From an uncultured Pelagibacteraceae bacterium (GTDB taxonomy: Bacteria; Pseudomonadota; Alphaproteobacteria; Pelagibacterales; Pelagibacteraceae), in NCBI GenBank assembly GCA_902568855.1, contig CACFSB010000004.1, forward strand, positions 1 through 34,095: 34,095 nt of DNA, given 5' to 3'. How positions within the stretch are numbered: the stretch's first letter is position 1; each line of letters begins with the position of its first letter. Position numbers and translations under genes: made by a program. The notes below the pieces were generated by a model. The model was not told the DNA's origin and made no database searches. It saw nothing but the letters and a program-made list of their open reading frames with translations. This document shows, piece after piece, positions 16,432-20,618 of this stretch.

Positions 16432-16671
16432 TTATTTTTTAGATTTGCTTGTCCACCATTTATCTAAAATAAAATACCAAATTGAATTTGCAATTGGTTC
16501 AACAATTGCATCTGTAAGTGCAACTTTAAAAGAGACATCTGCTACTATCATTAAAACTGTAATCGCAATTGCAAAGTGTCCAATTGTATAAATTACAGTT
16601 CTAAGTAAAGAGCCTTTATTATTTTGATAAATATTTTGGGATGCTTGAAAAATGCCTTTAGTAATTTCCAT
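16432..16671 (-). CDS. DUF2061 small membrane protein
   Basis: A 79-aa predicted inner-membrane protein. After an amphipathic N-terminus, the DUF2061 pattern appears: SLLRTVIYTIGHFAIAITVLMIVADVSFKVALTDAIVEPIANSIWYFILDKWW, with two helices separated by a short polar turn and the conserved E-P and W-Y residues of the family. The function of DUF2061 proteins is unknown. The ATG overlaps the stop of the aspartyl-hydroxylase-like gene by one base, so it is translated from the same mRNA and is probably part of the katG transcription unit. Confidence 0.75.
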   Translation of the reverse strand: MEITKGIFQASQNIYQNNKGSLLRTVIYTIGHFAIAITVLMIVADVSFKVALTDAIVEPIANSIWYFILDKWWTSKSKK

Positions 16672-17267
16672 CAGTTTTTAAAAGGACTTTCAAGAACACA
16701 AGCCACAAGGTGTATTCTAGCCTGTTCACCTCCATTAAAAAAATTATGATATTTTGTGTTGTTTGTAATCCAAACTTTCCCATCTGCGGGTAAGTGTTTA
16801 GCAACATTCTCTATAACCATTGAACACCCTTTGTTTGTGATTATAGGCACATGAAGTCTACATTCTGGATCTTTGTGCCAACTCAAAGTTGATCTGGGCT
16901 CTTTTAATAAGAGCCTAACTCTTCCCAATTTAAATCTCTTGCTTAGAACTTTGTAAACTTCTGCAAAGTATGTGTTTTCAAATTCAGGTATTAATTGTGT
17001 ATATTTAGACTCATCTATATCAACATCTCTTGAAACCTCTTTTCCAGTTTCGTCTGCAATTGTCCAATATTTTCCTCTAATGTTGCTCCCTTCAATCGAG
17101 CTCTTATCGTTTGGAATTTGGTTTAATGGAATTGCACCAAAATGTGTAACACCTGGTGTATTAAATTTTTTTAATTTCAAGATTTTATCTAAATCATCTT
17201 TTAATTTCGAAATATCAAAATTTAAATCTGGAACTTCATAAAAATCCTCAAAATTTGCTGTTGCCAT
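16671..17267 (-). CDS. Aspartyl/asparaginyl beta-hydroxylase-like 2OG-Fe(II) oxygenase
   Basis: Non-haem iron dioxygenase of the Asp_Arg_Hydrox family (198 aa), using 2-oxoglutarate and O2 to hydroxylate a protein or small-molecule side chain. The iron facial triad is visible: HxD as His131-Lys-Asp133 in STLSWHKDPECRLHVPI and the distal His186 in EQARIHLVACV; nearby Arg residues could bind 2-oxoglutarate. The length fits stand-alone bacterial members; the substrate is unknown. It lies 23 bases downstream of katG on the same strand and one base overlaps the DUF2061 gene. Co-expression with a haem peroxidase and nearby Irr suggests an iron- or oxygen-linked role. Confidence 0.82.
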   Translation of the reverse strand: MATANFEDFYEVPDLNFDISKLKDDLDKILKLKKFNTPGVTHFGAIPLNQIPNDKSSIEGSNIRGKYWTIADETGKEVSRDVDIDESKYTQLIPEFENTYFAEVYKVLSKRFKLGRVRLLLKEPRSTLSWHKDPECRLHVPIITNKGCSMVIENVAKHLPADGKVWITNNTKYHNFFNGGEQARIHLVACVLESPFKN

Positions 17268-17290: not shown

Positions 17291-19528
17291 TTAATTTAAT
17301 TTCAAATCAAATCGATCAGAATTCATAACTTTTACCCATGCAACTACGAAATCTTTAACAAATTTTTCACTTGAGTCCTCACAAGCATAAACTTCTGCAA
17401 GAGCTCTTAGTTGAGAATTTGAACCAAAAATCAAATCAACTCTTGTTGCTTTCCATTTAGTTTTTTGAGTTTTTCTATCTCTTCCAACAAATGTTTGTTC
17501 TGATTTGTCTTCCTCTTTCCATGTAGTATTCATATCTAATAGATTTACAAAGTAATCGTTAGTAAGAGAACCAGGTTTATTTGTAAAAACGCCGTAATTT
17601 GAACCATCATAGTTAGTATTTAAAACTCTCATACCACCTATAAGTGCTGTCATTTCTGGTGCAGTAAGACCCATTAGTTGTGCTTTATCAACCAATTTTT
17701 CCTCTGCCGAAACATTTGAAACTCCTCCATTTAGATAGTTTCTAAAACCATCTGCCTGTGGTTCAAGAAGACCAAAAGAATGAATATCAGTCTGGTCTTG
17801 TCTAGCATCTCCTCTACCTGCTAAAAATGGAACGTTAACTTTGTGTCCTGCCTTTTTAGCAGCCATCTCAATACCAACACCTCCTGCTAACACAATTAAA
17901 TCTGCCATTGATACACTTTTCTTTTTATTATCAAATTGATCTTTAATTTTATTTAAAGCTTTTATCACAACTGATAACCTTTTAGGATTATTCACAGTCC
18001 AATTTTTTTGTGGTTCTAGCATTATTCTTGCACCGTTAGCACCACCTCTTTTATCTGATCCTCTAAAAGTTGAAGCTGATGCCCATGCAGTAGAAACTAA
18101 ATCTGAAATTGATATTTTTGATTTAGAAATTTTGTTTTTTAAATCTTTAATATCTTTTGATTTAAGTTTGTACTTTGGTTTATCAATTGGATCTTGCCAA
18201 ATTAATTGTTCTTTTGGAACTTCACTACCCAAGTAGCAAACTCTTGGACCCATATCTCTATGGGTTAATTTAAACCACGCCCTTGCAAAGGCATCATGAA
18301 ACTCTTTAGGGTTTTGATGAAAATGCTTTGTAATTGGTCCATAACTTGGGTCAACTTTCATTGATATATCTGTTGTTTGCATCATTGGTGGATGAAGTAC
18401 ACCTTTTTGGTGTGCATCAGGAACCATTTTAATTTTTTGTCCATTTTTCTTTGGAGTCCATTGATGAGCTCCTGCTGGGCTTTTTGTTAGCTCCCAATCA
18501 TGACCGTATAAACAGTCTAAATAACCCATATCCCACTTGGTAGGATTTTGAGTCCAAGCACCTTCAATACCACTACTTATCGTATCGACACCTTTTCCAG
18601 ATTTATATCCACTATTCCATCCAGTAGACTGATCTTGAAGTTTTGAAGCTTCTGGATCTGGACCTTTATAAGACTCTGATGCTGCTCCATGAGATTTTCC
18701 AAATGTATGTCCTCCAGCAACCAAAGCTGCTGTTTCATAATCGTTCATAGCCATTCTTCCAAATGTCTCTCTGATGTCATGAGCTGCTAGTAGTGGATCT
18801 GGATTTGCGTCTGGACCTTGTGGATTTACATAAATCAAGCCCATATGAGAAGCACCTAGCGGCTGCTCTAAATCTCTTTTTCCACTATATCTTTCAACAC
18901 CTAGCATCTCTTTTTCTGAACCCCAATAAATATCATCCTCCGGTTCCCAAATATCAGTTCTACCTGCACCAAAACCAAAAGTTTTAAAACCCATGGAGTC
19001 TAATGCTACATTTCCAACCAATATAAATAGATCTGCCCAAGAAATTTTTCTTCCATACTTTTTTTTGATTGGCCATAAAAGTAACCTTGCTTTATCTAAA
19101 TTCACGTTATCTGGCCAAGAATTGAGCGGAGCAAATCTCTGATTACCAGTACCGGCACCGCCTCTACCATCACCAGTCCTGTAAGTTCCTGCAGCGTGCC
19201 AAGCTAATCGGATAAATAAAGGACCGTAATGACCATAATCTGCAGGCCACCATTCTTGTGAGTTTGTCATTAATTTTTTTAAATCTTTTTTTAACGCTTT
19301 GTAATTAAGTTTTTTAAATTCTTTTGCATAATTAAATTTTTTATCCATAGGGTTTGATAAATTAGAATGCTGACTAAGAATTTTTAGATTTAAACTATTT
19401 GGCCAGAAGTCTCTTACTGTTTGACCTCTTCCTGCAGAAAACTTTGCAGGTGTGCCTACCCCTGTAAAAGGACATTTACTTAGCTCATTTGCTTTAAAAG
19501 ATTTATTTTTAAAATTTTCAGTGCTCAT
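17291..19528 (-). CDS. katG: Catalase-peroxidase
   Basis: Bifunctional haem enzyme that removes hydrogen peroxide. 745 aa, the normal two-domain length. The distal haem site is Arg107/Trp110/His111 in [11 protein letters not shown]; the proximal His274 is in [12 protein letters not shown]. The catalase-specific Met-Tyr-Trp adduct residues are present (Trp110, Tyr233 in LIYVNPQGP, Met259 in FGRMAMND). The C-terminal duplicate domain lacks the haem ligands, as in the family. No signal peptide. It is less A/T-skewed and richer in Gly/Trp than its neighbours, which reflects strong conservation but could also mean acquisition. Its promoter contains an Irr-type element, and irr is directly upstream. 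The dioxygenase and DUF2061 genes follow. Confidence 0.97.
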
Positions 19529-19563: not shown

Positions 19564-19592
19564 AGTTTATAATGGTTCTAAATAGCTGTCAA
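19564..19592 (-). promoter_or_regulatory. katG promoter
   Basis: On the - strand: consensus -35 TTGACA (19587-19592), a 17-base spacer and -10 TAAACT (19564-19569); a TATAAA two bases earlier is an alternative. The ATG at 19528 is 35 bases beyond the -10 box, giving a leader of roughly 29 bases. The spacer and -10 box are covered by the iron-control-like dyad. Confidence 0.65.
19566..19582. promoter_or_regulatory. Irr-type iron control element (ICE) within the katG promoter
   Basis: On the - strand the sequence reads TTTAGAA-CCA-TTATAAA, matching the Irr-box dyad TTTAGAA-N3-TTCTAAA (consensus from memory) at 13 of 14 arm positions. It occupies most of the -35/-10 spacer and part of the -10 box, the ideal place for a repressor. 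The gene for Irr itself ends 43 bases away. Motif and position are seen; binding is inferred. Confidence 0.6.
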
Positions 19593-19625: not shown

Positions 19626-20024
19626 TTAATCTTCGAGTTTGACAAGAACTTCAATGGATTTGATTTTTTTTCCATCAATTTTTCTTTTAATATTTATGGG
19701 TCCTACATCAGAGTTTTCTAAGTCAATCAACTTTCCATCTTTCAAGTTATAAAAATGATGATGATCAGTAATGTTGGTGTCAAAATAAGTTTGGTTTGAG
19801 TTTACAGGGATTTGCTTTAAATACCCTTTTTTTTCAAAAGCATGAACTGTATTATAGATTGTAGCTAAAGATATTTTGTTATCTATTTTATCTTTAATTT
19901 TTTGCTCTAACTCGTTTATTGTGAAATGAAATGTTCTTTCAGTATTAAACAAAACCTCGCATATCTGAAGTCTTTGTTTAGTAGGTCTTAATCCAGAATT
20001 TCTTAATTTATCTATATATTTCAC
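19626..20024 (-). CDS. irr: Iron response regulator Irr (Fur family)
   Basis: Fur-superfamily transcription factor that in Alphaproteobacteria senses haem/iron status. 132 aa. The winged-helix DNA-binding domain starts with LRNSGLRPTKQRLQICEVLF and has the recognition region ISLATIYNTVHAFEKKGYLK. The following segment TYFDTNITDHHHFYNLKDGKLIDL carries the His88-His89-His90 motif that distinguishes Irr from Fur and PerR. The short Cys-containing haem motif of Bradyrhizobium Irr is absent, as in many Irr proteins. The start is a GTG at 20024; no better ATG is near. Position directly before fabA-fabB-fabI is a conserved alphaproteobacterial arrangement. ICE-like sites lie in front of katG and in the irr/fabA gap. 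Confidence 0.87.
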   Translation of the reverse strand: MKYIDKLRNSGLRPTKQRLQICEVLFNTERTFHFTINELEQKIKDKIDNKISLATIYNTVHAFEKKGYLKQIPVNSNQTYFDTNITDHHHFYNLKDGKLIDLENSDVGPINIKRKIDGKKIKSIEVLVKLED

Positions 20025-20036
20025 TTTTTAAGCAAA

Positions 20037-20061
20037 TTGTTAGTTAAAATTATTCTAACAA
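20037..20061. promoter_or_regulatory. Divergent irr/fabA operator: inverted repeat with ICE-like core
   Basis: An outer dyad TTGTTAG (20037-20043) / CTAACAA (20055-20061) with an 11-base centre. Within it, GTTAAAA-TTA-TTCTAAC (20043-20059) matches the Irr-box arms at 11 of 14 positions and shares the TTCTAA half-site with the katG element. TATAAT boxes facing each way (20064-20069 on -, 20066-20071 on +) adjoin it. It could let Irr control its own gene, fabA or both. Confidence 0.45.
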
Positions 20062-20117: not shown

Positions 20118-20618
20118 ATGAAAAAAAACTCTTACTCATACGATGAACTGATAAATTGTGGTGAAGGTAAACTATTTGGTCCTGGTAATGCCAAATTACC
20201 TCTTCCACCAATGCTTATGTTTGATAGAATTACAGAAATTAATGACAACAAGGGAGCTTTTAAAAAAGGTTTGTTAAAAGCTGAGTTAGATATTAAAAAT
20301 GATCTTTGGTTTTTTGATTGTCACTTTAAAGAAGATCCTGTTATGCCAGGATGTTTAGGTTTAGATGCTATGTGGCAACTAGTTGGTTTTTTTCTAGGTT
20401 GGAAAGGAAATCCTGGTAAGGGAAGGGCTTTAGGAGTTGGTACTGTTAAGTTTACAGGTGAAGTTTTAAAAAATGTCAAAAATGTACGATATGAAATAGA
20501 TATGAAAAAAATAATGTCGCCTGGAGGAACAACTGTTGGTCTTGCTAATGGGGTATTACTTGCTGATGAGAAAAAAATATATTCAGCTGACAATTTAAAA
20601 GTGGGTTTATTTAAATAA
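20118..20618 (+). CDS. fabA: 3-hydroxydecanoyl-ACP dehydratase/isomerase
   Basis: Introduces the cis double bond of unsaturated fatty acids by dehydrating 3-hydroxydecanoyl-ACP and isomerising the product. 166 aa hot-dog-fold protein. The catalytic His69 is in [17 protein letters not shown] and Asp83 in [25 protein letters not shown] is the N-terminal signature. It is divergent from irr with a 93-base gap carrying an ICE-like dyad. Its TAA overlaps the fabB ATG by one base. Together with fabB and fabI it forms the anaerobic-type unsaturated fatty-acid branch. Confidence 0.97.

Follow-up and report, generated by a model that had tools for sequence, protein, structure and literature searches.

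A predicted Irr-type operator in the katG promoter of SAR11 bacteria and its place in a proposed regulator-scavenger module

Irr of Rhizobiales and Rhodobacter is a Fur-superfamily regulator with an HXH motif that acts at a TTTAGAA-type promoter dyad, the ICE or Irr box (named in PMC3413700 and PMC7762939), and its targets include bfr, mbfA, ccpA and haem genes. For Rhodobacter, the reported targets include the rubrerythrin-like MbfA and the peroxidase CcpA (PMC3413700). The SAR11 locus described here has a regulator and a promoter dyad of the same kind. It differs in that the target is katG or a rubrerythrin gene (rbr) adjacent to irr, in that the right arm of the dyad studied here reads TTATAAA and not TTCTAAA, and in that the exact SAR11 consensus is almost absent outside the irr locus (3 of 77 sites). 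In mycobacteria (FurA-katG) and Streptomyces (CatR-catalase), a Fur-type regulator is encoded directly upstream of the enzyme and is autoregulated. The SAR11 arrangement resembles both in the regulator gene directly upstream of katG and in its predicted autoregulation, but its regulator belongs to the Irr branch, its katG has a promoter and a predicted operator of its own, and rubrerythrin can hold the place of katG. The PerR regulons of Firmicutes share with SAR11 the targets (the regulator's own gene, catalase and rubrerythrin), five metal ligands and an AATNATT-like core, whereas the SAR11 protein is without the cysteine zinc site and has Irr as its best family match. Among Alphaproteobacteria, katG of Magnetospirillum gryphiswaldense is also reported to be under a Fur-superfamily protein, although the regulator there is Fur itself and not Irr (PMC3251581, PMC5459824). 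In the titles and abstracts that we surveyed, neither an Irr box before katG in SAR11 nor an irr-linked rubrerythrin was reported, which is weak evidence of absence in both cases. SAR11 cells are among the commonest in the sea. The first cultured representative was described as lacking catalase, and its case has been cited in discussions of leaky, shared functions (PMC3033426).

We propose, with a probability of roughly 77%, that a dyad in the SAR11 katG promoter is the operator of the adjacent Irr-like protein, which would repress both katG and irr, and that the two genes belong to an old regulator-scavenger module. The protein would bind as a dimer over the spacer between the -35 and -10 boxes of katG, and the bound dimer should exclude RNA polymerase because the box covers the spacer and the start of the -10. 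Through a second copy of the box in the irr promoter, the regulator would limit its own synthesis. Its inactivation by haem, as for known Irr, and probably also by peroxide would then release katG. The module, which pairs a regulator with a peroxide scavenger and usually irr with rubrerythrin, would be of old alphaproteobacterial origin, and in many SAR11 lineages katG would have taken the rubrerythrin place while the operator-bearing promoter stayed.

The irr-katG locus and its promoter

The window, that is the whole stretch of 34,095 nucleotides analysed here, is contig 4 of a Pelagibacteraceae genome that is 52% complete. On its minus strand lies katG (17291..19528), which encodes a bifunctional catalase-peroxidase of 745 aa (TIGR00198, 1126.5 bits against a cut-off of 770.25; NF011635, 1212.8 against 981). 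Upstream of it, on the same strand, a Fur-superfamily regulator of 132 aa is encoded (19626..20024), with a PF01475 match of 73.5 bits against a cut-off of 23.1. The fabA-fabB-fabI genes are divergent from this irr-like gene and start at 20118. On the other side, 23 bp downstream of katG, are a gene for a PF05118 aspartyl/asparaginyl hydroxylase-like protein (16671-17267, minus strand) and one for a DUF2061 membrane protein (16432-16671, minus strand), both possibly co-transcribed with katG.

In the irr-katG gap, read on the minus strand, TTGACA (19587..19592) is followed by a 17-base spacer and TAAACT (19564..19569); these would be the -35 and -10 boxes of katG and set its putative transcription start. 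Inside the spacer sits a 17-bp dyad, TTTAGAA-CCA-TTATAAA (19566..19582, minus strand), which overlaps the first four bases of the -10. For comparison we take TTTAGAA-N3-TTCTAAA to be the Irr box, in the letters that the earlier note, made from this sequence alone, had given; 13 of the 14 arm positions of the window dyad match it, with one mismatch. The earlier note was correct in its coordinates, in the TTGACA-N17-TAAACT layout with a dyad in the spacer and in contact with the -10, and in its count of 13/14. A dyad of the Irr-box type is thus present over the -35/-10 spacer of katG. Single-window significance was considered as support for an operator and rejected: the AT-rich window contains 22 sites at no more than three mismatches against 21.5 expected, which is chance level, and a second one-mismatch match, equal in quality to the promoter dyad, lies within katG (17730-17746). 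The meaning of the dyad therefore comes from its conservation across relatives and not from window statistics.

A weaker copy of the box, GTTAGAATAATTTTAAC (13/16), occurs in the irr-fabA intergenic region at 20043..20059 on the minus strand, 18 bp before the GTG start of irr, and is likely to be the autoregulatory operator of irr, for which it is our candidate.

The earlier note had called the neighbouring gene irr, and this held in part. Among the NCBIfam models, IrrA (126.5 bits) and Irr (115.3 bits) were by far the best matches of the window protein, while PerRA (59.6 of the 200 bits required), PerRB (53.6 of 250) and Fur (38.7) scored much lower. Both Irr scores fall below the curated cut-offs (150 and 170, respectively), and the protein is therefore named Irr-like; this shortfall also counts against the operator model. 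The HXH haem-binding motif, as defined for Irr in PMC7762939, is present as HHH within DHHHF, its outer His pair is invariant in 197 relatives, and the protein has a single cysteine. The haem regulatory motif of Bradyrhizobium Irr (CPW/CRW) was absent from the window protein and from 30 Irr matches of other Alphaproteobacteria. Such a motif is not required of Irr, because it is reported to be missing from Rhodobacter Irr as well (PMC3413700). At the level of neighbouring genes, fabA was present at 191 of 198 katG loci but only at some of the 30 irr loci of other Alphaproteobacteria. An Irr-like identity is in keeping with the best family matches, with the HXH motif and, less clearly, with the divergent fabA.

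Conservation of the box and exchange of katG with rubrerythrin

Among 230 loci, katG was present in 211 and its start was resolved in 198, the other 13 being dropped for a missing N-terminus or the lack of an ATG. Some genomes occur twice in the set, as numbered and as named records, and clustering strips such near-copies: the 198 katG promoters gave 84 clusters at ~85% identity and the 203 irr promoters beside katG gave 49, with one representative scored per cluster. All 84 representatives matched TTTAKAATNATTMTAAA at 13/16 or better no more than 115 nt from the katG start, and 83 of them at 14/16 or better. Dinucleotide-shuffled intergenic regions reached 14/16 or better in 0.9% of cases, a comparison that is descriptive and not independent since the consensus was drawn from the same sequences. 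According to the earlier note, loss of the dyad from katG promoters that keep their -35 and -10 boxes would speak against an operator; in the SAR11 katG promoters the dyad survived throughout. The box-anchored columns of the left arm were T81 T84 T84 A84 G78 A84 A81 and those of TAAACT were T84 A84 A83 A75 C48 T77, the first four of which lie within the anchor; anchoring favours the arm columns, though 13/16 sufficed for a match. The left arm falls between the -35 and -10 and is part of neither, and both arms are near-invariant. In 71 of the 84 representatives TTGAC preceded the anchored box by no more than 16 nt, and the column conservation fits TAAACT as the putative -10.

At 195 of the 198 loci, irr lies 56-215 bp upstream of katG. 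The exceptions include L014, which is cut by the contig end, and L013, from another family of the order, where a tRNA-Pro gene precedes katG, irr lies on a different contig and the box is kept. At L227, fabA directly precedes katG with no irr between them, and the katG promoter retains a 14/16 box. In 22 of the 84 representatives there were two boxes at a distance of 30-32 bp, roughly three turns of the helix, and the second one, where inspected by eye, was a mirrored copy just upstream of the -35. At least one clade (L014, L020, L024, L025 and L031) has no box other than the one immediately before the -35; activation by Irr would also be possible from there, which counts against the operator model.

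The single-window statistics would agree with a reading in which only the promoter is conserved and its AT-rich spacer happens to seem palindromic. This reading is at odds with the conservation over 84 clusters, with the mirrored second box and with the recurrence of the box at irr, at rbr and in other Alphaproteobacteria; we regard it as refuted by the comparative data and attach almost no probability to it. As a prediction, an Irr-type operator before SAR11 katG is well supported.

The gene under the box is not always katG. In the first 19 katG-less genomes inspected, rbr was the next gene after irr and had a similar box in all 19, and 20 further loci had katG in 11 cases, rbr in 8 and neither in one (L297). 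Across 399 genomes of the genus, which the katG and rbr searches are taken to cover alike, katG was called in 195 (183 of them above the family cut-off), rbr in 123, both in none and neither in 81, many of the latter being incomplete. The exclusion has a Fisher P-value of 4e-48, with neither relatedness nor incompleteness taken into account. Of 16 sister-family genomes, 12 had rbr, and the katG carriers, G026 and G038, were without it. On a tree of irr and fabA proteins, built by a quick search from 104 thinned rows (186 distinct, 252 loci) and with 35 of its 101 inner branches weak, the katG/rbr label needs five changes. Whichever scavenger is present, the irr-adjacent promoter is marked by a similar box of predicted regulator type. 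This suggests that a lack of katG often does not mean a lack of defence, as many such genomes have rubrerythrin in the same regulated place.

At L297 (G469:C1:104100-106500), the stretch after irr has a katG-type promoter, complete with both boxes, but neither katG nor rbr was found in it; it looks like a katG deletion that left the putative operator behind. Seven genomes that are at least 90% complete (G222, G302, G425, G431, G436, G449 and G450) matched a Fur-like protein but gave no irr match, and G134, G374 and G466 gave no Fur-type or irr match at all. G222 and G302 are also without katG and rbr, as if the entire module had been lost.

The box at irr, at rubrerythrin and in other genomes

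The irr promoters beside katG had a box of at least 14/16 in 33 of 49 clusters and no 13/16 site in 10. Beside rbr, the irr promoter reached 14/16 in 27 of 34 loci, and all seven that failed were from the sister family. Both shortfalls count against the operator model. The rbr promoters beside irr reached 14/16 in 32 of 34 loci, the other two (L234 and L239) having 13/16.

Genome-wide, the exact consensus TTTAGAATNATTATAAA gave 77 sites in 71 of 113 genomes, compared with 16 sites for a reversed control pattern. No more than 160 bp separated 74 of the 77 sites from irr, the exceptions being two sites in G128 and one in G449. The exact consensus was missing from 42 of the 113 genomes, including that of the window, which is a further point against the operator model. 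Because exact sites are nearly absent outside the irr locus, the SAR11 regulon of the box looks small, as far as sequence can tell. A larger regulon did not emerge from a one-mismatch scan of 12 genomes, which gave 60 sites where the reversed control pattern gave 83; weaker genuine sites outside the irr locus may nevertheless exist. Eleven loci away from irr were inspected, at which seven sites were intragenic and four were not (L043, L045, L057 and L059), those of L043 and L057 lying beside genes. At L045 (G026:C1, 1501-1517), a perfect Irr box, TTTAGAATTATTCTAAA, precedes fabA by ~200 bp, and the irr gene of this genome adjoins katG on a different contig; the box either marks fabA as an Irr target or is left over from the irr promoter. 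At L059 (G012:C1:55952-55968), a 15/16 site lies between divergent bioY-like and polA-like genes (named by eye), with an exact-type site 282 bp off inside the polA-like gene, which may represent an extra target or chance.

Most genomes searched encode a second Fur-type protein, and Fur is reported to control katG directly in Magnetospirillum (PMC5459824, PMC3251581); the operator could accordingly belong to Fur or Mur and not to Irr. All eight sfuC regions scanned, however, contained a different, GATAAT/GAGAAT-type box of Fur type, which stood before sfuC in the four where this gene was found, and the katG box is unlike it. Moreover, the katG-type box is found together with irr, whose own promoter contains it. 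Fur was rejected as the binder on account of the different sfuC-region box, and we consider control by another Fur-superfamily protein very unlikely. Binding by the Irr-like protein encoded next to the box is the likely alternative on these comparisons.

In the sister family (L262-L266 and L268), a Fur-like dyad, TTGATAATAATTCTCAA and variants of it, stands just before the Irr box in the irr-rbr intergenic region, which suggests that rubrerythrin there may be under dual Fur/Irr input.

To place the locus within the class, 144 genomes were drawn, 119 of which had an IrrA match, and the best-scoring 30 loci, which are not a random sample, were used. In 28 of these best-scoring 30 loci rbr was found downstream of irr, in 27 of them within ~700 bp. 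A match to the Irr box of at least 12/14 was present in 13 of the 27 irr-rbr regions that could be scanned, compared with 0.04% of single-base shuffles. An irr with a nearby rbr is therefore probably the old arrangement of the class. In the set of the best-scoring 30 genomes katG was found in 19. Seven of 20 katG genes of other Alphaproteobacteria had a box of 12/14 or better in the 300 nt before them (0.05% of dinucleotide shuffles), two of the seven being from one genus; the other 13 had no box, which again counts against the operator model. At all seven boxed genes irr lay on another contig or more than 2 Mb off. A second Irr-like gene, with a weaker IrrA match (126 bits), occurs on the opposite strand ~1.9 kb from katG at L358 (G524:C73, 68709-73091), where katG has no Irr box.

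A predicted Irr box before katG recurs across the class and is not special to SAR11; what appears specific to SAR11 in our sample is katG in the rbr place beside irr. The claim of the earlier note that this lineage couples KatG directly to Irr can be upheld in so far as a putative Irr-type operator is conserved at katG, irr and rbr. Its lineage-specific part has to be given up in view of rbr beside irr in 28 of the best-scoring 30 loci and the boxes at 7 of 20 katG genes in other Alphaproteobacteria. Because irr, a nearby scavenger and an Irr-type box recur across the class, the question whether Irr senses iron, peroxide or both could be tested at this one locus.

Iron, haem or peroxide as the signal

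The effect of the bound regulator on katG is likely, from the position of the box, to be repression. As to the signal, G471, which we take to be P. ubique HTCC1062, has irr followed by rbr under two boxes, and we infer that this rbr is SAR11_0399. The mRNA of SAR11_0399 was reported to rise 1.57-fold (P 0.025) by 24 h after addition of an iron chelator, and P. ubique Irr protein to show no significant change in iron limitation (PMC2864753). A rise of rbr at low iron is opposite to simple, canonical Irr repression.

Such canonical repression was what the earlier note had envisaged: haem-free Irr would repress katG when iron or haem is short and spare haem iron. This would be in line with the position of the box over the promoter spacer, with the HHH form of the haem-binding motif, and with published Irr proteins, which are reported to bind the ICE only without haem and to hold down iron storage, among other functions, when iron is low (PMC7762939, PMC3413700). 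Against it, rbr of P. ubique, with similar boxes, goes up and not down in iron limitation, and a saving of haem iron is not established for this reason. The earlier note had further linked loss of irr to raised catalase activity in other Alphaproteobacteria. Catalase was indeed raised in R. sphaeroides, but purified Irr failed to bind the katE promoter and the effect was judged indirect (PMC3413700), which again does not favour canonical repression of katG. Overall, we consider canonical Irr control rather unlikely.

Irr is also reported to repress or activate according to the position of the ICE (PMC7762939). Irr might accordingly activate at low iron from a box upstream of the -35, as at rbr, and repress from a box in the spacer, as at katG. 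In many rbr promoters the stronger box does lie just before the -35, in most katG promoters a box lies in the spacer, and the rise of rbr at low iron would be accounted for. The two positions do not separate cleanly, however: some katG promoters have the upstream box alone, and several rbr promoters, that of G471 among them, also have a spacer box. We therefore regard position-dependent control as unlikely.

A serious rival is that the protein is a PerR-like peroxide and iron switch, that is, a Fe-dependent repressor whose site is destroyed by H2O2, with katG or rbr together with irr forming a minimal peroxide regulon that is derepressed by low iron or by peroxide. We judge this to be quite possible, though short of an even chance. 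The regulatory ligands of PerR, which we take to be numbered His37, Asp85, His91, His93 and Asp104, are five. All five align with identical residues in the Irr-like protein when compared with B. subtilis PerR (PDB 2fe3), and they do not vary across the 197 distinct Irr sequences aligned for the order; the sequences from other Alphaproteobacteria, extracted by match position alone, likewise keep all five (30 of 30). A ligand set so common to Irr generally does not single SAR11 out. The Cys4 zinc site of PerR is missing: the two CxxC columns hold N/D/S and mostly T/E/D/Q/K/A in the 197 sequences, and the Irr-like proteins of the order have 0-2 cysteines. The best family match, too, is Irr and not PerR. 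In favour of PerR-like control, the regulator's own gene, katG and rbr are genes of the kind that PerR typically controls, the AATNATT at the centre of the box is similar to the PerR box, and the rise of P. ubique rbr at low iron is what derepression of a metal-dependent repressor would give, although 1.57-fold is small and iron starvation may act indirectly. Bradyrhizobium Irr, for its part, undergoes oxidative degradation.

A LysR-domain search for an OxyR candidate gave none in seven katG-bearing genomes of the genus (one of them 52% complete) or in G026. Each of the seven had a single LysR gene, whose product is free of cysteine and, in the one scanned with NCBIfam, is GcvA/YafC-like, and G026 had none. 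A metal-dependent, peroxide-sensitive repressor fits the rbr rise, the ligands and the lack of an OxyR candidate at least as well as canonical Irr does. More tentatively, SAR11 Irr may have shrunk from a global iron regulator to a dedicated, self-limiting peroxide switch, with the haem enzyme KatG or the non-haem enzyme rubrerythrin, never both, as its exchangeable payload under a conserved promoter and putative operator beside irr, and with PerR-like sensing of iron and peroxide through the five ligands in place of the missing OxyR, a proposal about which we are more doubtful than confident.

At L251-L254, the sole LysR gene adjoins sfuC, a periplasmic iron-binding gene that is induced in iron limitation, and a link of this LysR protein to iron uptake is possible.
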